Below, in pieces: positions 45,835-64,000 of a DNA stretch of 64,000 nucleotides. Location of the stretch: positions 1 to 64,000 of the forward strand of contig JABSSW010000064.1 of NCBI GenBank assembly GCA_018902385.1, written 5' to 3'. Made by a program: the position numbers and the translations under genes. Origin of the DNA: Physcia stellaris (Eukaryota > Ascomycota > Lecanoromycetes > Caliciales > Physciaceae). Numbering within the stretch: position 1 is the first letter of the stretch; the number at the start of each line of letters is the position of its first letter. The notes beneath the pieces are model-generated. The model saw only the letters and a program-made list of their open reading frames with translations, was not told where the DNA came from and made no database searches.

Positions 45835-46002
45835 TAGAAACTAAGTATCCCATGCCCTGGCAAGGGGGTGGCACTCTTTCTCTAGGTACATTTTTGGGGC
45901 TTCCCCCGGGTATTCTGCTGCCGGGCGCTACCTAGATAGCACTTGAAGTTTACTATCAATTTCCAATGAAATACGGGGTCACCTTCTGTACTCTCTACTT
46001 TG

Positions 46003-46725
46003 TCAGTCATGATAGTTGGTAGCTTTGTGCATACTCACCATTGTGTGCACGCTCCCAGCTATCGCTCCCTGGGGACTCCAATTGTCGCAGGCTCCCCGAC
46101 CATTGACGTTAGGTGATGGAGGGTTTGGAAAGTCCGAGTCCGTGTCCAGCAACAATGATGTTCTCGATTTCAAGATGGTTGCGACTCCTCGACGTAAAGC
46201 CAGCCTATTCTTCCCGATAGTCTCAGTTCGTCGCAGGTTTGGGAGGAGGTCAAGACGAAGCTCAGGTGCCGTACCTTTGTTCCAGTGCCCCCGCATAAAG
46301 GCTTCGCCGTCCGCCCAATATCTATACGCAGCATACTCCTTCTCTCTATTGCTAGGATCGACCTTCGACACTGATCCCCTCGCTGCAGGGTTTCTCCAGT
46401 GGATCGTCTCAGTGGGGCGCTTTGAAAGTCTCATTATAAACCTTGGTTTATGACTGTTATAGTCTGGTTCAATTTGTTCATAAGAAACCTCTCCTAGCCA
46501 GAGCTCCCTAGTTCCATAGAATGAGATATCTCCGTGCGTTGTAATTAGAAGCACCATAACAAAGGGCGCTAGCCAGCTCGTGGCAATGCTGTTAATCTTC
46601 GTCCACGAATTGGGGTGATGTAGCATCACCACAGATTTGAAGAGGATTGGAGCAAAGATCTCGTGGAGTCGCCTGACTAACGAACGCCTACAGAGCATCA
46701 ATTGAACAATCACCTCATCAGTCAC
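46003..46725 (-). pseudogene. F-box-protein remnant
   Basis: A 240-codon stretch has no ATG at its start. It begins TDEVIVQLML ... SLVRRLHEIFAPILFKSVVML, which resembles the end of an F-box and the 'F..I..PLLFKSV.L' segment common in fungal F-box proteins. The rest (LRLDLLPNLRRTETIGKN) has no clear domain. Probably the surviving part of a lost F-box gene; it could also be an exon of a gene I cannot complete. Confidence 0.4.
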
Positions 46726-46864
46726 ACCACTGAATCAAGAAAGTGGCGTCACTTCACAACATTTCACAATCAAAGTTCAAGATCAATAGAAACCTTCCAC
46801 TGCGTCCTTGACTCGTCCGTGTCCAGGAAACCTGCCGCTTCATCATGCAGCGCTCCTACCCATC

Positions 46865-47042
46865 ATGGTATGCTCCCTGTCATTACAATTTCCCCATCCA
46901 CTAACCTGCATTCCAGATCACTTCACCGTCACTGGATAGCTTGCCCCCAGAGCTAAAGTACATGATCCTTGATAATATTCACGACTTCGAAACGCTATCC
47001 AGCATCGTCGATGCGTCACCGCAGTATCATCGAGTATACTAA
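46865..47042 (+). pseudogene. truncated F-box-like family member, ATG-only first exon
   Basis: The ATG (46865-46867) is followed at once by a 49-base intron (GTATGC, branch CACTAACCTG, TTCCAG). Exon 2 reads ITSPSLDSLPPELKYMILDN, then IHDFETLSSIVDASPQYHRVY, then stops after 42 residues in total. This ends where the 21.0-kb paralogue has its second intron. What follows (TATACTAATTC...TTTTACAG) looks like the branch point and acceptor of that intron with its 5' part gone. A dispersed repeat begins directly after, at about 47057. The copy is therefore cut off, possibly by the repeat. Confidence 0.55.
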
Positions 47043-47056
47043 TTCTTTCATTTTAC

Positions 47057-47397
47057 AGTCGGCCTGCTGGACATGAGTGTTGATGCGGAGAAGACGCATC
47101 AGTGTTTAACGGTCAAAAGAAATACTTAAACCTCCTGCTTGTTGAACTGCAGGCGACCGCCCATTATTTTCTGTTCTTCGTTCGTTCTTCTAACTTTTCT
47201 TTCGTTGCTCACTCGCTTCTGAGGGGTTGTTTCATGTGTATATCAATTCCATAGCCCAACCGCGAAGATAGAGGGAGTTAGCCGGCGATGTTAATACCCA
47301 GCAGGGCCTATGCGGGCGTTTCTCTTGCATAGGCGGTGCTCGCTGATAGGGCCAACCACCAAAGTTTTTATACAGAAGCCTTCAGGGGCATTAGTTC
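47057..47397 (+). repeat. dispersed repeat, copy B (partner at 8608)
   Basis: Same orientation and block order as 8608-8950. It abuts the truncated F-box-like copy at its left and the 3' flank of the WD40 gene at its right. Diverged from copy A by roughly a quarter of positions. Confidence 0.65.
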
Positions 47398-47642
47398 GGT
47401 CGGCCTCTGCCCCCCTTCAAAGCGCTTAGCCACCTCGGCCACTGGAGGTGCACCTCAAGTCTGCATCAGCCTCGCAGTCCAAGGCCTTGGCCAGCAGGAT
47501 GATCTGGGAATTATCTATGGCGCTTGATGCTCTCGCAGGGCGTTCGTCATCTGGGCGGCCCCAGGTTTGTTTGTTTGAGAGTTTTGCCGTGTAAGACGTC
47601 ATTCTCATTGAAGAACCTTGTATGGGCTGCTGATTTGAAATA

Positions 47643-49553
47643 CTAGATATGAGGAGGAGCAACCGTGCTACTGAAATGAAAGAATGTGACTATACCAGCC
47701 TCACTTCCAAGAACTAGAAGATTGTTATGAATGGCATACTTGTGTGGTCGATGATTATGCGGGAAGTTCAAGACATTGCAGCCCCTATATGTCACCCACT
47801 CTTTCTTCGTGTCTATTGCGTACGAATCAGTAATTGAGACTGATTCATGACCTGAAGTATTGAAGGGCGGCGAGATCCGAATGAGACTGTTGATTGTTTC
47901 TAACTGGGATCCCTCTGCATCGAAAGAGAGCTTTCCGCCCCAAAATAGTTCGTGTTGTTGAATTATGGACTTATCGTTTATATTCCACACTTTGACTGTT
48001 CTGCCGTCCGCAATTGCCATAAGCTGACCGTCTGGGGAGATTGTCATAGCCTCAACCGGAAAACCATTAAATTCAAGCGGACTAAGCGTAGTTTGACAAG
48101 TACCTGTGCTCACGTCCCAAAGCTGGACACGATCATCAATCGAAACAGCCAAAGTCTTGCTATCAGCAGAAAAGGCTAGTATGATGTACTCAAAACCACA
48201 ATCTGGATCACCGTCGGAAATATCGAAGGATTCCCATGTGGCTGTATTCCAAATTTTAATCACTTGATCTTCTGATGCGGAAGCCAGAATAAGCCCGTCC
48301 GGAGAAAAAATGATTGCACTCGTAGGCGCTTGATGACCCTCTAGCGTGACTTGGGATACACTTGTAACTGAGTAGTCCCAAAGTCTAATGGTACCATCGG
48401 AAAATCCCGACGCTAAAATTTGACTGCTAGGAGAGAAAATCAAGGTTTCCACACGCGTGTAAGAGTTACCTTGCTCATTGAAGACGTAATTTCCCACTCC
48501 CATAGCTGAATCCCACCTTACGATAACCGAGTCAGACCCTGAAGCAACAAACTTGCCACAGGGAGAGAAGACTATAGCAGTTATAGCAAGAGGATCAGCG
48601 TCAAGCTGATTCGAAACTGCCAATTTAGCTGGGTCCCAAAGCCGCACAGTCCTGTCACGGGATCCTGTAGCCAGAAGATGGCCGTCGCGAGAAAAATTCA
48701 TCGCGAGGACATCGTTGGAATGACCCTCAAGAGTGCTGTGCAAATCTCTCGTTACTGGATCCCACAAACTAACACTGATACCAAAGGATACGGCCAGCAA
48801 TCGTCCATCGGGAGAAAACCTCGTAGGTACGTCTTCGGGCCGCCCGTGAAGCACCGGCATGACGTCTTCTATGATACTCTTTGATGTTCCCGTAGCTTGA
48901 TCCCAGATCCTAATAGTTTTGTCATCAGAAGATACGGAGACCAGGAATTGTTGGTTGGGAGAAAAGACTATGGAATCGATCATGCCTGAATGACCTTCAA
49001 GACAGTGTTTTATGATGCCCTCAGACGTATCCCATAGATCAATAGAATGACCATTAGATTCTACAGAGGCTAAGAGCCGATCGTCAAATGGGTCGAAGAT
49101 CATTGCATGGATCTTTGTCGAATGATTGAGCGTATGTAGAATTGTACATGCAGACGAGTCCCAGATTTTGATAGTCATATCGAGGGAACCTGATGCTAAG
49201 ATCCAGGGGCGAAGAGGAGCAAATGCCATCAGATTAATTTCCTCTAAATGACCTGCCAGACTGCCTCGTGCCACTCCTATGAGTGGGTCCCAGATTCGAA
49301 TGGTATAGTCAATCCCTGATGCAGATGCTAGCAAACGCCCGTCCGAGGAAAAGGTCATTTTAGTAATGCGATCGTACTGTTCTTCAATAATGCCTTGGGA
49401 GATCCCTGTAGCCGGATCCAAACTTCTGATAAACATATCAACAGTTGTAGCAATGAGGAGCTGATTGTTAGTTAGGAAGAGTAACGCATAAGAATGTCTG
49501 CGGAGTCTGAGTTGAGCCTGCCTTGCGATATCGTCTTGTATTGTGCCTCTCAA
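47643..49553 (-). CDS. WD40 propeller half of a STAND (NLR-like) receptor
   Basis: An open stretch of about 636 codons with no ATG of its own at the start, made of about ten or more WD40 repeats. The repeats have clear hallmarks such as MTFSSDGRLLASASG..TIRIWD, IVFSPNQQFLVSVSSDDKTI, MNFSRDGHLLATGSRDRTV, IFSPDGLILASASEDQVIKI and MTISPDGQLMAIADGRTVKV. It sits directly downstream of, and clearly belongs with, the RelA/SpoT-NACHT half at 49.58-52.18 kb. Together they make one STAND-type gene of roughly 1,500 residues. In such proteins the WD40 propeller is the ligand-sensing part that releases the NACHT switch. The last about 70 residues (after ISPPFNTSGHESV) are a non-canonical final blade. Confidence 0.82.
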   Translation of the reverse strand: MRGTIQDDIARQAQLRLRRHSYALLFLTNNQLLIATTVDMFIRSLDPATGISQGIIEEQYDRITKMTFSSDGRLLASASGIDYTIRIWDPLIGVARGSLAGHLEEINLMAFAPLRPWILASGSLDMTIKIWDSSACTILHTLNHSTKIHAMIFDPFDDRLLASVESNGHSIDLWDTSEGIIKHCLEGHSGMIDSIVFSPNQQFLVSVSSDDKTIRIWDQATGTSKSIIEDVMPVLHGRPEDVPTRFSPDGRLLAVSFGISVSLWDPVTRDLHSTLEGHSNDVLAMNFSRDGHLLATGSRDRTVRLWDPAKLAVSNQLDADPLAITAIVFSPCGKFVASGSDSVIVRWDSAMGVGNYVFNEQGNSYTRVETLIFSPSSQILASGFSDGTIRLWDYSVTSVSQVTLEGHQAPTSAIIFSPDGLILASASEDQVIKIWNTATWESFDISDGDPDCGFEYIILAFSADSKTLAVSIDDRVQLWDVSTGTCQTTLSPLEFNGFPVEAMTISPDGQLMAIADGRTVKVWNINDKSIIQQHELFWGGKLSFDAEGSQLETINSLIRISPPFNTSGHESVSITDSYAIDTKKEWVTYRGCNVLNFPHNHRPHKYAIHNNLLVLGSEAGIVTFFHFSSTVAPPHI

Positions 49554-49578
49554 AGCTCCAGTGGATGTGTCCCAAAGC

Positions 49579-52175
49579 CTAATGCTGGGGGTTCAATAAA
49601 TGCAGAGGCCAGAAACTGGCCATCCGGGAAAAAACCACTTCAATGGGCTTCATTGCATGGGTTTCAAGTGTTTGCAGCGAAACAGGCCAAGCCCCTTCAA
49701 CTTTCGGTAGGATTTCAATCCATTTGGGCGACTCACATGAATGCATACGTCTGATACTACTATTTTCCGGGCAGAAAACAATGGCAGAAATGTAGATCTG
49801 AAGAGGTGCCAATTCAAGTACAGGCCTGAATTCAAAGATAAATCGTCGTGCCTCGTTCACAAAGAAGAAGACAGACTGCTGCCTGTTTGGCACTAATGGA
49901 TTGGAAATCAGCAGGCAAGGTAAAGAAAACTCTCTCACGATGTACCTACCATCTGCATAGACCCTAGCGATCTGATGGCAAGTATAGCCTCAGATAACTT
50001 TCTCAAGAGAGTAAGTGCCTCGAGCCAATGAAGGAAATGGACTCGGAAGAACTCAAGGACCAGGCAATGTTCGCCCAAGACAAAAGTCTCCTGGCTAATT
50101 GTGCCAGCTTGGTGTAGATGATCAACCCAGTAGACACAGGCATATTGAGCGTAGAGGGGAAGACGAACTCCTATGCTGTCGCGCTCAATGTCGCAGAGAC
50201 GATATCCTGGCGTTCGCAAGTTACAGATGTCTTTCCGCAATGTACTTGACATCAATTTCATGCAAAGACGAGTTATACTAGCATGTTGATGATTTCGTCC
50301 CGAAGGGAAGACTTCTCTTCTTTCGTCGTCATCGAGGTAGTCTTTTGCCGACTGATGGACTAGATAAACAATCTCTCCCCGAATAGTTAAAAAAGAACCG
50401 CAGAGTCCCACCAAATCTTCGACATTTTCATGACCAGGCAGTTTCGCAAAGATGACGATCTCTTGCAAGTGTAACGGTCTTAAGGCGAGAGTGACTGAAC
50501 TGAGAATTCGTTGGGAGAGCTCAACATCATTCCGATCCTCCTGATGAACGACCATCTTCAGCATCCTTGCGTAGAGAGGCATCAGTCCCGCAGGTAACTT
50601 TTCAAGCAAATCCCTCACTTTGTGCTGTCGCACCTTAAAGAGCTCCTTGCACACCAGAGCCACCCAAAGAAAGGTGTCTTCTGCTTTTTCAAGGAGAACC
50701 CTTCGAACAAAGATCTGCAGCCTACTGCCATATGACTTCAAGTCAGCCAATCCTTTAACTTTGTAGTCTATGAAACTGTGGACAGCACGAGCCACGTGCT
50801 TAGAATTAAGCTCAAGACTGGTGTGCAATTGACGACCGTGTCCTAACCGCTCCGTAAAAGCTGGTTCGTTGCGGCTTGTCGTGAGCCACTTGACCTTGGG
50901 CGATATCTGGGACTCTCCACAAACGATCCAATCCAAAAGCTCATGAATCTTTACGTCGCATTCATCTAGAGCATCTACCATAAGAACAACATTCTCGAGG
51001 CTCTCGTCTTTCAGTATATCAGATAGAATGGTTCGCAAAGCATACAATACGTTTGGACCTTCAAATATCCGTGCTCCTGCCCCATCGTAATACTTTCGTA
51101 CATGACGGACAAGCTTTTTCTCTTGATCGACAAGAAGATATATCAAGCCTCTTAGTACCGCAACGGTGGTATTAAGGTCAACACTGGTGTTCTGACAAAA
51201 GAAATAGGCTAGCACATTTAATCCAGGTGAATGATTTAGCTTTTTGGTCACCTCGGAGATGAGTGCCATCATCATCATAGTTTTCCCTTTGCCTGGATCA
51301 CCATGAATCCAAAGCAGCCGGGAATCATCACGATCCCACCAGTCAACAAAAGCTGCATCATCCAGAACCCAAGAGCAGGAGCCTTCCAGCAACTGATCTT
51401 TGCTTGCTTCGATCCTCTGTTTGTCATGTCGGGGATCTGTCAGCCGCAAGTCGCGTATGCACTGTTTATCATTTTCGTCAAGGCGCACACTGGCTTCTGC
51501 AGCTTGAATCGCTTTTGGTAGGTTCAGGTCCACATCAGTCTGTTCCAGCGAAAGCCTCGCGGTGGGAAGAAAATGCCTATTGAACATTTCGAGACCTATC
51601 TCGCCAAGATTCGCAACTCCTTTCAGCAATTCGAGACTTGCGACAACATCCTCGCTGGACTCCCCATGTAGTTTTTTGTATTCAGTGTCATGTGCCACAA
51701 TGGCATAACCCCACATAAAAGGTGTCATTAATTGGATCTCGATAAAAGGATTACAGGCTTCCGGCTTAACAGGGTCTTTCTGAGTTAAATGGAGATGGCG
51801 ACCACCGTAGCCACGAAATCGTGACTGGAGGTTTACCGATCGCTGTCCAGGCTTTGGGTGTTGGATCTGACCTCTAAGTATAAACTTCTGCTTCAAGATA
51901 TGCTCGACACGTTGGAAATGGCGGCTCTCGGCCAGAATGATCCTCCCAGCGACCAGATCAACGATATCAGCGACGTTGTCACTTTCGTCATTGTAATTTT
52001 TGTTTCGATCTTTCAGCTTCTTTTCTAGTGAGTACACCTTCTTCACTCGAAAACTCAATAAACACTGAAAATCTTTGAGTACTTCTTCACACAATGCCTT
52101 CACCTCCTTCTCTATGCTTAGGTATTTCTCATAATCACGTGCAAATGCCGTAACAAAATCGATAATGGCATCCAT
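49579..52175 (-). CDS. RelA/SpoT-NACHT half of a STAND (NLR-like) receptor
   Basis: Starts at the ATG at 52175. Exon 1 ends at 49950; a 71-base intron (GTAGGT...GGCAG, 49949-49879) leads to the NACHT-WD40 linker QSVFFFVNEARRFIFEFRPV. Domains: residues about 40-170 resemble a RelA/SpoT (ppGpp-synthetase-like) nucleotidyltransferase, with DIVDLVAGRI (Asp73, Arg78), FRGYGGRHLHL (Tyr123), FIEIQLMT (Glu146) and AHDTEYKKL (His162, Tyr166). Residues about 285-500 are a NACHT NTPase, with Walker A GDPGKGKT (292-299) and Walker B LMVDALDEC (398-406). Between the linker and the WD40 part (about 49.64-49.58 kb) the frame changes about twice in a homopolymer-rich stretch while the WD-like reading stays recognisable. 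So the gene is recently broken or mis-assembled. No hydrolase HD domain is present. Predicted intracellular non-self sensor with a nucleotide-making effector; inference. Confidence 0.8.
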
Positions 52176-52588
52176 TACGCCAGTAGACCGTAGCGGTCGC
52201 AGCAATGTGTACTAATTCGCTCGAAAACAAGTTTCAGGTATGCTTAGCATAATCACAGCCGAACTGAAAAAGAAGAAGATTTGGATTTGTACGGGGTAAA
52301 ACTGGAGCTAGCAAAGTCTCGAGGTGAGCCTCGGGCGTTTAAGCATGCACGTCGACACCATCGGGCGTGCTCCGAGACTGGAGGGATATGCATGGTGTGG
52401 TGGTACAAAGTTGGCGGTGCAGGGCGGTTTACGAACCTGAAAATATGAGGGTCCTTGACTGCTGGAGCAGCTATAAGTGTCCAGTCCCAGAGCTCTAAGT
52501 ACGGAGGGCGACTTCTATTCGCATTTGGTTTGAAACCCGAGCTTTTTAGACCAAGAAAGCTGGTACCTCATATTTCTGGGCTTCGGAG
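52176..52588. promoter_or_regulatory. upstream region of divergent NLR-like and CorA-like genes
   Basis: 413 bases between start codons on opposite strands. No named site recognised. Confidence 0.4.
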
Positions 52589-54135
52589 ATGGACAAACCG
52601 ACCAGCCAGAACAAAGGTGGCTCGTATAAATCATTCGTCGCCGCACATACCCAACGAATTTCATGTCTTCGGAATTTGCTTGCATTCCTCCAAAATGACA
52701 GCACTTACGCTTGTCGGATCGTCTGTTTAGAGTTTTCCTCTGCGACAAAGGTGCCAGATTGCCGAAGCCTTAATCTCATGCAACTTATACTGTTGCTCCG
52801 TAACGAGAACACAGAGACTCGTGACGTAAAAGGCCGGATTTTGATCATTGAAGACTTGTCCAATGACGTCGTCGAGATACTAGGATCGATGCTGGGTATT
52901 GACCCTCTATTCTTCGCATCCCACATCGATAGCTTCGAAGACCAGATTGCAACAACAAGGCCTTCGACAGCTATCTTGCCATCCACCCTGAGATCACAAA
53001 ACTTTGTGAACCTTCCCTACCATCGTGTAGTTGAATTAGAGCTTGGAAGTCTCGAATCTGAGAAAGGGTTGCTCCGAGACATGAACGTCCCCCGGAAAGT
53101 GGCGATTCTGCCAACGCTCAAGGGCATCAACGTCGGGCTTGCACGAAATTGCTGTTCCATCTTGAAGACCGAGACCAGGGATGGGCTCTGGCTAGGTGAA
53201 CTAGACACTAATTGCCATCGGAATTCGTAAAGAAAGCTAACGTTTGAGTAGGAATACTCCTTGTTGACCCACCTATAAGTAATTACTATGTGTCAAGACT
53301 TCGAGCTACTAGTGGCGCAACCAGGCTTGAGCTTCAAACAAGGCTCTTTCAGGGTGGCTTTCAGGATTTCCTCTCATGTCCTTCGTCACTTGACCTGATC
53401 AACCCTGAATCTAGCCAAACGTGGTCATCTCCACTGGATTATCTCATCCGCTGCTGGAAAACCCAAGAGCCACCTGGTTTTGATAAGAATTGTCCAACCC
53501 TGTTTTGTCTTTCGTCTTATCCTTTGAGAATGATTGCCGCCGAATGGATGACGTACTTGGAATTGATGTATCATAGCATCAAACAATATGAATATTCCCC
53601 CGATACTGCTCTGGCTGCACTCGGACAGATCACCATACTGAGCGCGGATATGCACGCTCTTCAACAATGGGCTCGTCGCAGTATCGCATCAGCAAACAAG
53701 ATCCGCTATGTGATCAAATACTTGGAACACCGGATGACTAAAGAAGATGACAAGGAACACGCAGCCTTGTTGATCGAAGACTATAAACTCATAGCTTCAG
53801 GCATTAAAACTTACAGTCATCGACTAGGAGCTCTGGTATCCACCGCTACTTCCTTGATCCAGGCGATCGACTGCAGAAGGTCGCTCGCAGAGACGGTTAA
53901 CATCTCACGTCTGACTTATCTAGCTTTGAGCTTTCTTCCTTTGACTTTTGTATCTGGTCTCTTCAGTATGAATGACGGGATTGCGCCGGGAGGTGGACTT
54001 TTTGGGCTTTATTTTGCGGTCGCAGTTCCTCTCAGTGTGTTGATACTTTTGTTCGTATATTTACCTACTAAGCCGCTTGGGGTCCTAATAGCACGACTAC
54101 GTAATTCGAGGACTATGCGGGGAGTTGTAGGTTGA
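52589..54135 (+). CDS. CorA-like magnesium-channel family membrane protein
   Basis: Two exons, 52589-53195 and 53252-54135. The 56-base intron (GTGAAC, branch GCTAACG, GAGTAG) joins WLGELD-free LWLG to ILLVDPPISNYY in frame, giving 496 residues. The N-terminal half has the usual fungal CorA-like blocks: RILIIEDLSNDVVEILGSML, IDPLFFASHID, STLRSQNFVNLPYHRVVELE, MNVPRKVAILPTLKGINVGL, and ARNCCSILKTETRDGLWLG. The C-terminal end has two membrane segments with the pore signature region LTFVSGLFSMND, where CorA proteins carry GMN; here Gly is Ser but Met-Asn remain. Coiled-coil helices precede it. Probably a plasma-membrane cation channel or a derived sensor. It is the last intact gene before the AT-rich tract and shows no sign of mutation spreading into it. 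Confidence 0.85.
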
Positions 54136-54648
54136 ACTTGAAAAGCATTCGTAAGTATTCGTACTGATTTACAGAGATATACTTTCACTATAGAGGATGT
54201 TACCGTTGCAACGCCCGGATACCAGGAACAGAAACACCCTCATCTTCTTAATGGCTTCAGTAAACGTCAACAATGATGGTCCCGATGTATTACATCAAGT
54301 TACGGAGTACCCTTGGCGTAATATGCACACTATACTTGGTGGATGGATATATTACATCGAGCTTCGCATGGCAGGATGATGATTTGTAAGTCTGAAGTCG
54401 CTTGGGAGTCGAGATCGGTGCTGGATTCCGTCAAGCATCGTTCGCCAGAAGAAGTGGATCCAAGAGCCTACGAGCAGGAGCTTAGACATTCAGCACATTT
54501 CAGTCCTCGGGCCGTCCAAATGTGTGCATACAGCCTTAAAATCAAGGACAAGGCTGGATGAAATACATTAGAATCTCAGAGAATTGCATGTCAAGATCCA
54601 TTCGAAAGCCGTTTTCCTGTCATGACGCTAATGTTGCGTACTTCCTTC
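54136..54648. other. intergenic transition before the AT-rich tract
   Basis: Ordinary base composition with no supported gene; ends at the sharp composition change near 54.65 kb. Confidence 0.45.
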
Positions 54649-55108
54649 GTTGCTATGTCCAAAATTCTTGATGTTTTGAATTTGATCGATTTGTAAATTT
54701 TTGCATAAACGAAATAATTTAACAAAACAATTTTCAAAATTGATTTTTTTTTTTGTTTTTGCGATTGAATTATAAAACGAAAAACAAAACATTTCGAACA
54801 AAAATGACAAACAAAATTTTATAAAAAAATAATAACGTCGAAAAGAATAAAAAAATAAATAAACAAAAAAAAAACATGAAATATTAATTTTTTATTTAAC
54901 GAAAAAAGTAATTGTTTTAATTGTTTTTTATTTCGTTATTTTTGCATTAATATTTACGTTTAATTTGAACGAATTAATATTACGTATTTTTTTCGTTGTT
55001 ATATACAAAATTTTTGATTTTTTAAATTTGATTGAATTGTAAATTTTTTGCATAAACGAAATAATTTAACAAAACAATTTTCAAAATTTGATTATTTTTT
55101 ACAATTTC
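54649..55108. repeat. direct-repeat pair at the tract edge
   Basis: About 105 bases at 54649-54752 recur at 55003-55108 in the same orientation; shared TTTTTGCATAAACGAAATAA and TTTAACAAAACAATTTTCAA. The left copy, next to normal DNA, keeps a few CC/CT pairs that the inner copy has lost. They may be the ends of a small (about 460-bp) degraded element or LTR-type fragment. Confidence 0.55.
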
Positions 55109-55739
55109 AAAATATGTTTGTTACGAATAATTTTCACATAAAGTTGAAATTAAAATATTTTAATCAAAAAAAAAATTAACGTTTTCGCAAAATTTCGACA
55201 CGAATATATATTTTATTTTTTGATTTTTGTTAAAAACGATTTCGAAAATGATTTCAAAAACGTCACGTAACAATTTCAATAAAATTAACGATGTCAAAAC
55301 AATCAAAACGAATATGTAAAATTTTTTCGTATATTTTTTTTAAATAATCGATTATTTATTTATTCACAATTGCATTAAATATTATTTTTTTGACATTTTT
55401 TAAATAATAACAATTCAATCATTTCATCAATCATATTATTATTCAATACGTTTTTTCGTAACAAATGATAATATTATTCAAATTATCGATTTTTTGATTT
55501 TTATCGTCAAAAATTAATTTTTTGCAATAGACAATTGAATGACAATTCGTCGAAAACGCGAAAATTTTATTATTGCGAAACACATATCGCATCGAAAACA
55601 TTGCGCGAAATCGAAAAACACGATAATGAATATGCATTAATATCATTTAATTGTTTGCAACAATTTAATCTTTGAATATTTAATTAATATAACATTTAAT
55701 TATCAAACATTTAATCGCATAATATGTTAAAATACAATT

Positions 55740-58700
55740 TTTATTGAAAAATTTATGAGTGATTATCATTTCATTGTTTTGAATTTCGTTATTCTTGTAA
55801 CATACATGCAGATGAAACACAAAAAATGTGCGAATGTCAAAACATTAATTTCAACAAAAACGCATTAATTTTGTTTTCGTCAAATTATATCAATTGAATT
55901 TTGATTGCAACACATTTGCGAAAATTGTATTTTTAACATTTTTTTACAACAATCGTTTGTGTTTTTTGTTTTGTATTTTAACGAATTCAATTTGAAATTT
56001 TCGTGCAAATTTTTTCAACGCGACGAATTTTGAAATTTTTTCAACGATGTGATTTTTCAACGATACGTAATTTAGAACTTTTTCAACGATATGTTGTTTA
56101 AAATTTTCGAACAAACTTTTTCGATGACGTAAATTTTGTAAAATTAAATCATACATCGATGCGAAGATTGCAAAAACGAACGAATCGAAATTCGATTATT
56201 TGTTGACGTTAAAATGTGACGTAAAATCGAAATGTAAAACGTGCGATCGAACATTTGAAAAATTGCGACGTTCTGAATTTTTTCATGAAATAAAACATCG
56301 ATGTGAAATTCGATATTTAAAATTGAATAAAAAATACATCATGAAACAAATATCAATTGTTTGAATTTTGCGATAACGAACGAGAATGCGAATCACATCA
56401 TGTAACATCATTGTGTTTCAAAATTTTCAAATATTTTTTGCGACATCAATGAATCGATATTTATGCGATTTGACTGTAAAAAGTTCATAAAATATGTCGA
56501 CGAAATGCGCAAAACTGAAAACGATCGAAAAATCGATATGAAAAATGATGCATCGAATGCGAACAAATTTTTGCGAACATACATCGATGCGAAAAATGCA
56601 AAATCGAATTTTTTTGATTTGATTAAAATTTGTCAAAAAATCAAATCGATTAATATGCGAAAAAATCAAATATTTTTATTGTTTGTTTTTTTTGATCGAA
56701 TTTCTGTTTTGCAAAATCGAAATGTAATATGATTGCATAATACGTTTTTTCGAAACGATATTATATGATTTCTTGTCATAAAAAACTGTATAATACGTTT
56801 TTTCGAAACGATATTATTCGAACGTAATCGTTATGATTAATACGTTTTTTCGAAATTGTATTGTTTTCGATTGTTTTTGTTCATTTTAACGATTGTATTC
56901 ATTTTTTTTTTCGAATTTATCGAACGATTGAAATTTCATTAAATAATAAAAAATAAAAACGATAATCAATCGTGTTAAATCAAAACGAAACAATCAATAC
57001 AATTAAAAATATATCATTTTTACATTAATGAAATCAAATAAACAAAACATACAACAATTTTTAAAGTTTTTTCAAATCGATCAACGATTAATAAAAAAAA
57101 CGAACGAACAAAACAACAAACAAACAACATGTTTTAATTTTTTCAGAATAATGATTTTTTCGAAAAAAAATCAATACTTTTTCAAAGTAAAATGAAAAAA
57201 AACGAAACGTCAATAACGCATTTTCATGAATATTTCATTGTTTTCAATTCTGAAAACATTTGACATGATTCAATCGATAAATCGATAAATAACAAAACGT
57301 TTTTGACAATGTTTGCAAACAAAAAACGAACGAAAAATTATTGAAAATCGAAAAAAAAACGAAATAAATGAAATCGAATGAAAAATCGAAAATTGACGCG
57401 AAAAATTTTCGCGAACATGTGTTGATTCAAATGTTTCGAATTTGATCGATTTGAAAACAAATAAAATTATCGCATAAAAATATGACGTAATGCGATTTTG
57501 TATGAAATCACATTTGTTTTTGAAATTGTTGTCACGATTGCATTTGTCAAAACTTTTCGAAAAAAACGAACGCATTTGATATCGTTGCAAATCAAATGAA
57601 TTCGACTTTTTAACGAACATGCGATAAAAATTATTCACGATCAAATAAAATTTCGATGATGTAAACGTTCGAAACGAAATAAACGAACAAATAATGTTTG
57701 CATTTTTCGAAAATTTGCACATCGATTTGAATGTCGCAATCGAAAAGTGAAAAAATTTCGATGTCACGATTGATCGTGAGACGATTTTTGTTCAAAATAT
57801 CGATTTTTTTGATGTTTCAATCGACGAAAAATTTGACGAAAAAATAATTAATGATTCGATTATTGATTTCGATAACACGAAAAATAACGAAAAAAATGAC
57901 GAAATGATCGATTGAAACGACGAAACAAACGAAATAAAAAATGAAATCACATATTCAACAAATTGTTAAACAAATTTCGATTTTGATTTTTTTGTATGAC
58001 AAATACGAATATATTCGTGAAATTTGATGTTGTTATCGAATTTGATCGAATGTTTGCAACGTTTGCAAATATATTTTTTTGTTCGTTTTTTGATTAAACG
58101 AATTTTTTTTTTGTTTTGTCAATTGTTACATTTTTTTTTGAATTTGTTCTTGATTTCCAACTCATGCTTTCGTAAATGATAATTTTCTTGTGTTTTTTTC
58201 GCTTGAATGAATCAACTGCATTTCGAAACATTAATTAAATTTGAATTGATATGTTCGTGATACAGCGATCGAAAATTTTGCGTTTTCGAATCATTCGCAT
58301 CGACGCAATTGCAAAAAAAAAATGATCAAAAAAGAAAAGCGAACGACGATTCGAAGATGAAAAATGCGAAATTCGCAAAAATACGAATCGTCATTTTGAT
58401 TGAATAATAAATACATAAATTTCGCGAAAAAATTCGAATAAATATACGCGAACTCGTAAAATAATCGTAAAAAATTTCGATAAATAAACGAATTCGCGAA
58501 AAAATCGTAAAATAATCAAAATGTTCGAAAGTTGATTTGTATCAAAATATTAAATGTTGTTAATGCAATTAAATCAATTTTGATTTGACAAAATTGAATA
58601 TTTTCAATAAAATTGAATATTGTTGAAATATTGCAAATTTTGTTGTATCGTTCGACGATTAAATATTACGTGTTCATGACGTGTTGTAATTGATATTAAA

Positions 58701-58929
58701 TGTAACGAAAATTGTTAATTCGATTTTCATAATTTATTGAAAAAAATCATGAATAATTATCATTTTATTGTTTTGAATTTCGTTATTTTTGTAACATACA
58801 TACAGATGAAACATAAAAAATGTGCGAATGTCAAAACGTTAATTTCAACAAAAACGCATTAATTTGATTTTCGTTAAATTATATCAATTGAATTTTGATT
58901 GCAACATATTTGCGAAAATTGTATTTTCA
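55740..58929 (+). mobile_element. degraded repeat element, left arm of palindrome
   Basis: About 3.2 kb bounded by two direct copies of a roughly 195-base sequence (about 55740-55942 and 58735-58929), as LTR-type elements are, though no reverse-transcriptase or gag signature is recognisable. The interior holds remnants of C2H2-finger-like readings (about 56.2 and 57.3-57.7 kb) and three copies of TAATACGTTTTTTCGAAA at about 56738, 56791 and 56838. It is heavily broken by RIP-like mutation. Family unknown; an old, dead, possibly non-autonomous LTR-like element is the best guess. Confidence 0.5.
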
Positions 58930-61900
58930 ACAATTTTCGCAAATGTGTTGTGCAAATATTGCAATCAGAATTCAATTGATATAATTTGACGAAAAAAAAA
59001 CTAATGCGTTTTTGTTGAAATTAACGTTTTGATATTCGCACATTTTTTGTGTTTTCATCTGCATGTAATTTATTAAAATAACGAAATTCAAAATAATAAA
59101 ATGATAATTATTCATGATTTTTCAATAAATTATAAAAATCGAATTAACAATTTTCGTTATTACATTTAATATCAATTATAACAATAACATGTCAAAACAC
59201 GTTATGAACAATAATAATTAATTGCACGCAATACAACAATGTACACGCAACAATAATCAATTCAATGAAATATTTAATTTAGTCAAATCAAAACGATTTA
59301 ATTGCATCGAGCAATATTCAATATTTTGATTCACACGATCAATACATTCAATATTTTTAATTACGTCGATAACATTTATTTATTCATTTTACGAATTTTT
59401 CGCGAATTTGTTTATTTATCATTCAATCAAATTAACGATTTCAACATTTACATTCGATTTGACGATTATGTCATTTTTATCAAAATTATCAATTTTTTCG
59501 AATTTTGTATCAAAATTGTACGCAAAAATTCGAAAATTGCGTTTTTTATTTTATTTTTTGCGTCATCGTCACGAATAATCGAATTTATTTTTTCGATATT
59601 AAAATTTTCGTTTTTTTCGATTCGTGTATCAGATATCGTATGTAAACATTCAAAAATACATTCATTATTATTTTTATTTTTGCGAAATTTATAATTTTTA
59701 CGAATTTCATATTTTTCATTTTCGAATCGATTTTCGTTTTTTTTTTTGATCGTTTTTTTTTTTGCATTTGCATTTTCGCGAATGTTTCGATAATCAAACA
59801 AAATAATTTTCGATCGATATATTACGAACACATAAATTCGATTTTATCGATTGTTCAAAAATGCAATTAATTCGTTCAAACGAAAAAATATCAAAAAAAT
59901 ATCTTGTGCGAAAACACGAATTGCAAATAAAAAACAAAATCAAACAAAAAACGAAAAAATTATTGAAACAACAAAAAAAAACTCGTTTGATCAAAAAGAA
60001 ATTGAAAAATATATTTGTCGACGTTGCAAAAACAATACGAAATTTAACAACAACATCAAATTTCACGAATATATTCGTATTCGTCATGCAAAAAGTCGAA
60101 ATTTGTTGTTTCATTTGTTTTCGAATCGAATTTTTTTAAATTTTTCGATCGATTATTTTTATCGTTCACGTCATCGAAATTCATATTTTTTTCGATGTTC
60201 GAATCAAAAATTGTACGCGAACGTTCAGAAAATATATTATTTATTTCGTCGATTGCAACATCAAAAAAATCGATATTTTGAACAGAAATCGCATCACGTT
60301 CAGTCATTGCATCGAAATTTTTTCGTTTTTCGATTGCGACATTCAAATCGATGTGCAAATTTTTAAAAAATACAAATATTATTTGTTCGACAATTTCGTT
60401 TCGTTTTTTTATCGAAATTATCGAGATTTTATTTTATCGTGAACGATTTGTTTCACATGTTCGTTGAAAAATCGAATTCGTTTGATTTGCAATCAAGTCA
60501 AAACAAATCGTTATTTTTTCGCAATTTCGACAAATGCAATTTTGTCAACAAATATAATTTCATACAAAATCGCATTACGTCATATTTTCATACAATAATT
60601 TTATTTGTTTTCAAATCGATCAAATTCGAAATATTTGTATCAATTTACGTTTCGATGAAATATTCGATTCGCACGTCATTTTCGCGAATTTTTCGATTTT
60701 TTTTTTTTCGATACGTTTTTTTTTTCCAAAAATTTTTCGTTCGTTTTTTGTTTGCAAACATTGTCAAAAACGTTTCGTTATTTATAAATTTATTGATTGA
60801 ATCACGTCAAATGTTTCAAAATTGAAAACAATAAAATATTTATGAAAATACGTTATTGACGTTTCGTTTTTTTCATTTTATTTTGAAAAATATTGATTTT
60901 TTTGAAATCATTATTTTGAAAAAATTAACATGTTGTTTGTTTGTTTTGTTCGTTCGTTTCTTTTTATTAATCGTTGATTTATTTGAAAAAAACATAAAAA
61001 TTATTGTTTTAATGAATTCGATATTTCGTTTTTTTCGTTTTATTTCGATTTGAAAAAGTTAAAAGTTGTTGTATGTTTTGTTTATTTGTTTATTGTTTCA
61101 CGAATTGATAGAAATTTATTTTTGTTGTTTCGTCTTGATTTAACACGATTGATTAATCGTTTTTATTTTTTATTATTTTTGAAATTTAATCGCTCGATAA
61201 ATACGAAAAAAAAATAAATACAATCGTTAAAATGAACGAAAACAATCGAAAACAATACAATTTCGAAAAAATGTATTAATCAAGACGATTATTTTCGCAA
61301 ATAGTATCGTTTCGAAAAAACGTATTATACAATTTCGTATGACAAAAAATCACATAATATCGTTTCGAAAAAACGTATTATGCAATCATATTACATTTCG
61401 ATTTTGCAAAACAAAAATTCGATTAAAAACAAATAATGTTGAAAATATTTGATTTTTTCGCATATTAATCGATTTGATTTTTTGACAAATTTTAATCAAA
61501 TCAAAAAAATTCGATTTTGCATTTTTTGTATCGATGTATGTTCGATGCATTCGATGCATTATTTTTTTTATCGATTTTTCGATCATTTTCAGTTTTTCGC
61601 ATCGTATCGACATATTTTATGAACTTTTTACAGTCAAATTACATAAAAATCGATTCATTGATGTCGCAAAAAATATTTGAAAATTTTGAAACACAATGAT
61701 GTTATCAAATCATGATGTGATTTGCATTCTCGTCAAAATCGCAACATTCAAACAAAAAATACTTGTTTCATGATGTATCGTTTATTCAATTTCAAATATC
61801 AATTTTCGCATCGATATTTCATTTCATGAAAATTCAAAACACGATTGCAATTTTTCAAATTTTCGATCGCACGTTTTACAATTCGATTTTACGTCATATT

Positions 61901-62370
61901 TGAAATCAATAAATTATCGAATTTCGATTCGTTCGTTTTTGCAATTTTCGCATCGATGTATGATTTAATTTTTTCGAAATTATATCGTTGAAAAAGTCAT
62001 ATCGTTTTGAAAAAATTTCAAAATTTATCGTTTTGAAATAATTTGTACGAAAATTTCAAAACACGCATCGTTGAAAAAAATTTGTACGAAAATTTCAAAT
62101 TAAATTCGTTAAAATACAAATCAAAAAACATAAACGATTGTTGTGAAAAAATGTTAAAATACAATTTTCGCAAAAATGTGTTGTGCAAATGTTACAATCA
62201 AAATTCAATTAATATAATTTGACGAAAAAAAAACTAATACGTTTTTGTTGAAATTAACGTTTTGACATTTGTACATTTTTTGTGTTTTCATTTGCATGTA
62301 ATTTATTAAAATAACGAAATTTAAAACAATAAAATGATAATTATTCATAATTTTTTCAATATAATATCAA
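58930..62370 (-). mobile_element. degraded repeat element, right arm of palindrome (inverted copy)
   Basis: This is the reverse complement of the left arm. The 195-base end sequence appears inverted at about 58930-59130 and 62155-62370, and internal stretches pair in mirrored order (for example about 57.3 with 60.75 kb, 56.2 with 61.93 kb, 58.03 with 60.07 kb). It is about 250 bases longer than the left arm. C2H2-finger-like readings occur at about 60.0-60.1 and 60.72-60.8 kb. Heavily broken, with the same mutational pattern. Confidence 0.5.
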
Positions 62371-63059
62371 AATTTATTTTTTACACGAATTACAATTTGT
62401 CAACATTTTTCATTTTTAAAAAATTATCGAATTTTTTTATCAATTTATTAAAATTAATATTTTTGCATTCGCAATCATATATGTTTTTTAAAATTAAATT
62501 TTTTTATTAACGAATTTTTTTAATCGACAATTAATCGTATCAATATTTTATCGTATCGAAAATGAAAAATGTCGAATTATTTTTGATCGAAAATATATAT
62601 TTTAATAAACGAAATCGTCAAATTTTTAATTGTTTTTATTGTTATTTCGTCGTATTCGTTAACAAATGACATTATATCAATTTTTTGCAAATTTATTTTA
62701 ACGTATATTTTGATTGTTTTTGCATTCAAAATTACAAAAAAAAAATTGAAAAACAAAATTTTTGCAATCGAAATCGATCGAATCGTCAAAAAATATTTTA
62801 ATCGAACGTTATTTCGTTTAATACAAAAACAAAAAAAAATCGTCAAATTCAAACAGAAAAAATTCGTTTAATCAAAAAAACGTGCAAAAAAAAACAACAA
62901 ATTTAAAAACACGTTTCGTCGAAATAACACGTTTCGTTGCAATACGTTTTGCAAAACAAATTCATTTTGTTAAAAAATTTGCAAAGTTTTTGCAATAACA
63001 ACAACAATCGAAAAAATTTGTTAAATCGAAAAAATACATCGAATTAAACAAATTCGCAT

Positions 63060-63640
63060 TGAAAAAAAACGTATAAAAACATTTGCATGCAAACGTTGCA
63101 ATGCGAAATTTTCGAACAATACGAAATTTCATTATTATATCGAAAATTATTATGCGAAAAAGTTTGCAAAATTCGCAACATTTATATTAAACGAATTCGC
63201 AAAAATTATATCGATTACAACATTTGCATTAATAATATTTTTTTATATTTTGAAAACAATGATTACGATATTTACATTTTTTGTAACATTTTTATTATCG
63301 AATGAATTAATATTGTTGTTCACATTATTTGTTAATCATTTAAAATCGATTTTCGATATTTTATTTTTATTAATTTTATTTGTTATATCAATTGCAATAT
63401 CAAAAAAATTAATATTTTGAATCGAAATAATTTTACGTTCAATTATTGTATCGAAATTTTCACGTTTTTCAATTTTTATATCAAAAAATTTATGCAAAAC
63501 GTTGAAAATTGTAACAATTGTTTGTTTGTTTATTTCGTCGTTTAATTTTTTTCAAAAATTAATATCAAAATATTAATATCAAAAATCGTATTTTATTATC
63601 GATGATTTGTTCGAAATATTTGTTAAAAAATGCACGAAAT
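63060..63640 (+). repeat. third partial copy of the degraded element
   Basis: Matches about 59990-60420 in the same orientation. It includes a finger-like reading CKRCNAKFSNNTKFH at about 63.09 kb against CRRCKNNTKFNNNIKFH at about 60.02 kb, and a shared ATATCAAAAAAATTAATATT-type stretch. It continues the family toward the window edge. Confidence 0.5.
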
Positions 63641-64000
63641 TAAATTTATTATACATCAAAAAAATAAATCGTTTTCGAATTTTTTCAATCAAATTAAAAT
63701 TTCGATTTATTTTATGCGTGCAATCAATCAAAACAATTCGATTAATTAAAATTCGAAAACGTTAAATTCGAAAAATTTTTAACAATATACGTTTACGAAA
63801 TCGAATCGTATTAAATTTATTTTCAATAAATAATTTAAAAATCGATTATTTTATTATATAAAATATCGATTTTTTCTCGTCGTTTATTTGTATCAAAAAA
63901 ATCGATTGTTTTAATATACAAATTGTTTTTAATTTTTGATCGTTCATTTTATTTATTTATTTTTCGAATTTTTTAAACATTTTTGTTTCATATTACAATT

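Follow-up and report, generated by a model that had tools for sequence, protein, structure and literature searches.

The window that we analysed, the first 64,000 bases of a 226,887-base contig (JABSSW010000064.1, C64) of the lichen-forming fungus Physcia stellaris (Lecanoromycetes, Caliciales, Physciaceae), ends in an AT-rich tract from which C followed by a pyrimidine (CpY) has almost disappeared on both strands. The tract probably consists of dead transposable elements that were hypermutated by a defence directed at repeats and resembling repeat-induced point mutation (RIP), which acts on both strands and changes C to T almost exclusively where a pyrimidine follows. Aligned copies give the direction of the change, its sequence context, its action on both strands and its speed, and in our samples it is restricted to AT-rich blocks of repeats. 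The process is real, widespread and nearly saturated; it works like RIP and fails the classical CpA criterion for RIP.

CpC and CpT are nearly absent from the tract

A preliminary description, using two 300-base hand counts, had placed the tract at 54649–64000 and reported that CpT, CpC, ApG and GpG were almost absent from it, with CpA kept and CpG in excess. Counting all 16 dinucleotides over this interval agrees with the hand counts: at a GC content of 22.9%, there are 3 CC, 0 GG, 35 CT and 43 AG, together with 552 CA (observed/expected ratio, o/e, 1.32), 497 TG (o/e 1.22) and 507 CG (o/e 4.12). CA and CG thus remain close to their density in genic DNA. TpA is not raised (684 occurrences, o/e 0.49). 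The unmutated genic flank (42000–54667) served as a control: counted over 42000–54000, where GC is 48.4%, CC, GG, CT, AG, CA, TG and CG each have an o/e of 0.86–1.13. In 500 base-preserving shuffles of the tract we obtained 129.5 ± 9.7 CC, 117.7 ± 9.8 GG, 425.8 ± 14.7 CT, 401.2 ± 15.3 AG and 122.8 ± 9.1 CG. Because the shuffles give far higher numbers of CC, GG, CT and AG, chance is ruled out as the source of the deficit.

The best change point in CpY density within 53001–56500 is at position 54668, with a per-base density of 0.232 to its left and 0.0087 to its right. The start given earlier was therefore near, but 19 bases too far to the left. The converted tract, which occupies 54668–64000 of the window, continues past the window's end with no break up to contig base 104,000, and two samples of 400 bases, taken at 110 and 116 kb, show the same mutated type. 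Farther along the contig, 12 samples at 122–188 kb are normal and 6 at 194–224 kb are mutated. These last six lie near the contig end (194–226.9 kb), and assembly breaks may fall in mutated tracts.

The edge coincides with a direct repeat of about 125 bases, on the plus strand. Its left copy (54629–54752) sits astride the edge and aligns at 87.3% identity to the right copy (54975–55100), which is within the mutated tract; 55000–55101 matches 54654–54752 at 90%. The change point falls inside the left copy, where CpY is kept in the first ~40 bases and gone after them (the last sites are at 54653, 54659 and 54667, and the next is at 54844), and the switch from ordinary to converted sequence takes place within a few tens of bases. 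A sharp edge at the start of repeated DNA is as expected for a homology-guided process.

Direction and context of the mutations in retrotransposon copies

A search for reverse transcriptase listed 150 matches and gave us ten extracted loci, of which L033–L036 are the four with normal GC. In family 1, we aligned the reference L033 (GC 51%) over up to 3.5 kb to L039–L042, and also to L044 and L045; the comparison thus covers six mutated loci, out of 23 matched places listed besides L033, some of which are pieces of one copy. Taking both strands together, C has become T at 95.4–98.2% of CpC and 74.8–86.6% of CpT sites in these six copies, and at 3.6–10.8% of CpA and 2.4–4.5% of CpG sites, the spared contexts. 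Changes in the opposite direction (T to C and A to G) amount to about 1–2.5%. Per-strand counts are similar in L039–L042, so both strands are hit.

Family 2 is gypsy-type, with L034 and L035 as unmutated references and L030 and L029 as mutated copies. Compared with L035, L030 shows C-to-T change at 275 of 283 CpC, 246 of 266 CpT, 25 of 263 CpA and 8 of 276 CpG sites; the comparison with L034 gives 259/270, 245/266, 28/266 and 11/268, respectively. Restricting the count to sites where the two references agree, the values are 98.0% for CpC, 92.9% for CpT, 8.3% for CpA and 1.2% for CpG. The unmutated pair, compared with each other, show no context bias (2.0–4.9% per context). L029, a more diverged eighth copy, has lost 87–88% of CpC, 83–84% of CpT, 23–24% of CpA and 19–21% of CpG; loss of CpA and CpG grows with age or divergence.

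Over the seven less diverged copies, losses are thus 95–98% for CpC, 75–93% for CpT, 4–11% for CpA and 2–4.5% for CpG. The preliminary description had proposed C-to-T change before a pyrimidine, and this is what the copies record; it was right about the CpT/CpC context, but it named CpT first, and CpC is the harder hit. The surviving fractions imply that the CpC rate is about 1.4–2.5 times the CpT rate, and that the CpT rate is at least about 15 times the CpA rate (about 7 times in L029). In a partially mutated locus, L038, CC+GG are fewer than CT+AG in 10 of 10 blocks of 350 bases, a pattern consistent with CpC being converted first.

Other neighbouring bases have smaller effects. When four related copies are pooled, the base 5' of the C shifts the rate in any one context by no more than ~8 points. 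The second base on the 3' side has a weaker effect than the 5' base, with the exceptions of CAC and CCC. CCC changed at 90.2%, compared to 97.2–98.9% for other CCN trinucleotides. CAC changed at 14.8%, compared to 3.9–7.0% for CAA, CAG and CAT (L033 against L039–L042).

The alignments also indicate speed. L030 and L035 differ by 521 CpY transitions and by 13 changes at 977 A/T sites (26 at 994 sites for L034). Transitions from C:G to T:A are virtually the only mutation type in L030, and the six family 1 copies are similar. Because CpY is ~95% saturated in L030 while 1.3–2.6% of A/T sites have changed, we infer a fast burst rather than slow decay.

The tract itself includes part of a dispersed repeat family (55742–56500) that occurs in at least ~40 further places on many contigs, at 78–90% identity (40 of the 355 candidates were scored; matches total 47). 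Among eight aligned copies, CC is absent from all eight, and GG is absent from seven and occurs once in the other. These eight were compared among themselves, with no reference copy. Pooling the 28 pairs, C/T differences occur at 472 of 557 CpT, 561 of 2830 CpA and 207 of 1827 CpG sites, and no CC is left.

Mutated blocks elsewhere in the genome escape the standard RIP indices

P. stellaris was sequenced from an ascospore-derived axenic culture, using Nanopore and Illumina reads (PMC7513301). The published assembly is 46.57 Mb in 184 scaffolds with a GC content of 43.3% (PMC7513301); the version analysed here is slightly smaller (43.97 Mb, 147 contigs). The accessible portions of the genome paper do not mention RIP (PMC7513301).

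We surveyed composition in 500-base segments from 20 ten-kb loci (L013–L032). Twelve loci were picked blind to composition: three around methyltransferase genes, eight arbitrary, and one in the genic part of the window. The other eight were chosen because of the tract, four adjoining it and four around copies of its repeat. After dropping five of the 400 segments (>50 N), there were 395: 144 AT-rich (GC < 0.35), 250 normal (GC ≥ 0.40), and one in between (GC 0.37), which is normal. These eight loci contributed 142 of the AT-rich segments, and one arbitrary locus, L026, contributed two. CpY is depleted in all 144 AT-rich segments and in none of the normal ones. Between normal and AT-rich segments, the density per kb of C before a pyrimidine drops from 250 to 13.5, that of CA+TG from 137 to 117, and that of CG goes from 54 to 56. 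As an association, the mutated copies that we studied are multi-copy elements and the 250 segments with GC ≥ 0.40 are unaffected. In AT-rich sequence (54668–64000 of the window; L017–L020, L026 and L029–L032) CpG density equals that of genic sequence, with no sign of methyl-CpG decay. One 2-kb stretch in a mutated block (L020:1001–3000) is neither clean nor saturated, with 24 CC remaining in very AT-rich sequence.

RIP is commonly scored by indices, with published cut-offs of TpA/ApT ≥ 0.89 and (CpA+TpG)/(ApC+GpT) ≤ 1.03 (PMC10998396, PMC6180176). From near the change point to the end of the window these indices are 0.517 and 1.379 (difference –0.862), and in the genic flank they are 0.670 and 1.311 (difference –0.642). 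Both cut-offs are passed by 0 of 144 AT-rich and 9 of 250 normal segments, and the substrate cut-off alone by 9 of 144 AT-rich segments. The standard indices therefore call this ruined DNA normal, as the preliminary description had anticipated for the tract. From the published GC content of 43.3% and sampled values of ~0.50 in genic and 0.24 in mutated DNA, we estimate that roughly a quarter of the P. stellaris genome is affected.

A genome search with 5.8S rRNA found a single copy. In the ribosomal DNA of contig C41, the match to small-subunit rRNA (L043:2306–3154) needs 849 bases to cover 484 model positions, which suggests that the gene may hold an insert of ~365 bases. At its gathering threshold, Rfam gave no match in the window.

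Dead elements are interrupted mainly by TGA

Mutation before pyrimidines would turn TGG codons of dead elements into TGA and leave most glutamine codons in place, so that long frames would be broken mainly by TGA. We compared six relics with L033. In its reverse-transcriptase frame, TGG has become TGA at 41 of 42 positions, while a stop has replaced 1 of 54 CAG, 0 of 18 CAA and 0 of 24 CGA codons. When every plus-strand frame of 150 codons or more is included, some of them overlapping in other phases, the counts are 142 of 154 for TGG to TGA, 7 of 186 for CAA to TAA, 4 of 214 for CAG to a stop and 2 of 87 for CGA to TGA; TGA makes up 145 of the 168 new stops. By eye, the listed reverse-transcriptase matches also show mostly TGA stops. 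L033 is itself free of CpY mutation but not intact, its frames being split over three phases.

Because TGG becomes TGA and glutamine codons mostly survive, relic frames can remain open when TGA is translated as tryptophan (W). One such frame in the tract (57003–57965, minus strand) runs for 320 codons with six TGA, and has no Pfam match. Pfam searches with four relic frames translated in this way, three from the tract and one from L018, gave nothing above the cut-off.

Candidate enzymes and rival explanations

The preliminary description had suggested looking for RID- or DIM-2-type methyltransferases, and the genome encodes both. There is a DIM-2 homologue, which matches the solved chain of DIM-2 with E = 4.6e-188, and there are two RID-family genes, RID-A (on contig C5, 1,184,035 bases) and RID-B. 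The RID-B gene lies at about 3910–5562 of L013 (contig C6), and its clade is also present in Heterodermia. RID-B matches the Pfam DNA_methylase family (E = 2.2e-33) and has the PPCQ catalytic motif, and the structure predicted for the Heterodermia protein combines a BAH domain with a methyltransferase. It forms a separate clade with an altered stretch directly after PPCQ: 28 of 28 RID-B rows in the tree have Q where 72 of 72 other rows have H (usually as A-H-T), and 51 of those 72 also carry D/N-D/E-x-x-N. RID-B thus has the catalytic motif and BAH-like features of RID/Masc1 proteins, but not the H that follows PPCQ in them.

A mechanism that would join these observations has repetition as the trigger, the sexual cycle as the time of mutation, and a RID-family C5-cytosine methyltransferase as the actor. 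We think it probable that a RID-family enzyme is the cause. That RID-B itself is responsible, through an altered target rule, is a more tentative proposal that we rate at somewhat less than even, judging from its sequence. A rule set by the base 3' of the target suits a reader of the C5-methyltransferase type, and not a deaminase that reads the 5' base. Since it is the 3' base that decides here, the methyltransferase type fits better. The name "RIP-like" is supported by these data; RIP in the strict Neurospora sense, for which premeiotic timing and the enzyme would have to be demonstrated, goes beyond them.

The strongest rival, though an unlikely one, has DIM-2 as the mutator: bound to heterochromatin, it would methylate CpY, and the 5-methylcytosine would then be deaminated. 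The homologue noted above is available for this role, and in Neurospora DIM-2 is described as preferring CpT, and older heterochromatic repeats as needing DIM-2 for RIP (PMC13297926). However, the same source has it methylating all CpN contexts, a poor fit to the spared CpA and CpG, and the saturation of L030 at so little A/T change is too fast for slow deamination.

We regard it as very improbable that the tract reflects ordinary mixed RIP, that is, CpA-type RIP combined with strong activity at CpT, as reported for Botrytis, Sclerotinia, Magnaporthe, Colletotrichum truncatum and Anisogramma. CpT-rich RIP signatures have been published (PMC4352252, PMC6180176, PMC10998396), and alignment counts make CpT-to-TpT dominant in RIP-capable fungi (PMC7882544) and in the Neurospora element Tad1 (PMC2621366). 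Here, however, the seven copies have lost 4–11% of CpA and 75–98% of CpY, TpA is at half its expectation (o/e 0.49), no AT-rich segment passes the CpA-based cut-offs, and CpC comes first whereas it is last in the orders reported for N. crassa and Trichoderma reesei (PMC5496416).

An AID/APOBEC-like cytidine deaminase acting on repeats would also produce C-to-T changes on both strands, and we give it as little chance as mixed RIP. Deaminases of this kind exist in animals and read the base before the C; in P. stellaris the following base decides and the 5' base has little effect. A search with APOBEC_N found no match in P. stellaris, but it found none in the control genomes either. Least credible of all is a compositional or technical artefact (AT drift, selection, or assembly or basecalling error): the assembly does include Nanopore reads, but Illumina reads were also used (PMC7513301), unmutated copies of the same families are present in it, and AT drift would not spare CpA and CpG while leaving 3 CC and 0 GG in 9.3 kb. 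We also rejected decay by CpG methylation and deamination, given the CpG content of the tract (o/e 4.12) and CpG densities of 56 per kb in AT-rich and 54 in normal segments.

Several observations weigh against our interpretation of a repeat-directed process confined to CpY and run by RID-B. The six family 1 copies are related to each other, and their sites are not independent. CpA loss exceeds the background of reverse changes in several copies (up to 10.8%), and CpA and CpG losses reach 19–24% in L029, the most diverged, so there may be a weak CpA activity alongside the CpY activity. At least 6 of the 144 AT-rich segments have 34–42 CA+TG per 500 bases, when the lowest normal segment has 47. 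Several segments of L017 between 3501 and 8500 have 34–40 CA+TG per 500 bases with CpY gone, perhaps reflecting slow loss of CpA in the oldest DNA. L034 and L035 (3.4 kb, 95% identical) have no CpY mutation even though their relative L030 is mutated, and L033 is likewise free of it: the process skips some repeats or is yet to reach them. In RIP of the Neurospora type, duplicates above a threshold of length and identity are at risk. As to the enzyme, the link between RID-B and the context comes from one genome and a database poor in names, the presence of DIM-2 together with both RIDs singles out none of the three, and the CpT preference attributed to Neurospora DIM-2 (PMC13297926) counts here too.

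L034 (C5:1166521 region) and L035 (C12:60312 region) have long open frames. Because they differ at 76 codons synonymously and 7 non-synonymously, in 691 codons, both have evolved under purifying selection. They escaped or outran the defence, perhaps as recent elements, while L030 was destroyed.

Comparison with known systems

The P. stellaris process resembles RIP in N. crassa in changing C:G to T:A on both strands of repeats, in sparing genes, and in occurring alongside RID and DIM-2 homologues. It differs in its context, which is CpC > CpT >> CpA, CpG, compared to CpA > CpT > CpG > CpC in N. crassa (PMC5496416), and consequently TpA is not raised, new stops are mainly TGA, and CpA-based indices fail. 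CpT as a RIP context is already known. It is targeted in Botrytis cinerea, Sclerotinia sclerotiorum and Magnaporthe oryzae (Amselem et al. 2015), and a motif of RID has been suggested as what determines this preference (PMC4352252); in those species CpA joins CpT, and the text available has no mention of CpC (PMC4352252), whereas in P. stellaris CpC leads and CpA is close to background. CpT is also high in some Stagonospora repeats (PMC2621366) and raised in Neurospora rRNA pseudogenes (PMC5555474). Other orders lead with CpA: in T. reesei CpA ~ CpG precede CpT > CpC (PMC5496416), in a duplicated region of Zymoseptoria tritici 240 of the 242 mutations are at CpA (PMC10294615), and a survey of 1,239 genomes concluded that a preference for CpA is common to RIP-like defences (PMC12543289).

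Among lichen fungi, Cladonia rangiformis has similar low-GC blocks of transposable elements with sharp borders (PMC12542154); a term search of that paper gave no RIP context for them. Cladonia metacorallifera and Gyalolechia flavorubescens, placed in Lecanoromycetes by the taxonomy dump, are RIP-positive (5–9%) by an index scan (PMC7882544) that the P. stellaris tracts would fail. The CpG-type decay of Tuber and Microbotryum and methylation induced premeiotically (MIP)-like methylation share a C-to-T bias in repeats and the suspected involvement of C5-methyltransferases (PMC4352252); unlike in CpG-type decay, CpG is kept in P. stellaris. A suitable index already exists, because RIPCAL covers all four CpN contexts (PMC2621366).

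In the open literature we found no CpC-led process that nearly spares CpA; subscription papers were outside this search, and Clutterbuck 2011 may hold a similar case. That paper is reportedly a survey of RIP contexts.

RIP is recognised and scored, and ascribed to RID, by its signature, the base that comes after the mutated C, and P. stellaris offers a natural specificity switch: a context that is changed, nearly saturated, and almost without a CpA component. Surveys that depend on indices can overlook a strongly affected genome such as this one. With RID-A, RID-B and DIM-2 in one genome, it becomes testable which residues of RID determine the context of RIP, and whether the mutations are made by RID itself. 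We tentatively suggest, at less than even odds, that RIP specificity is evolvable and has flipped in one lichen lineage, where the rewritten catalytic loop of RID-B would read a pyrimidine instead of an adenine after the C. If so, the shared CpA preference of RIP-like defences (PMC12543289) would be partly an effect of the search method, and genomes indexed as having no RIP may conceal RIP of other contexts.

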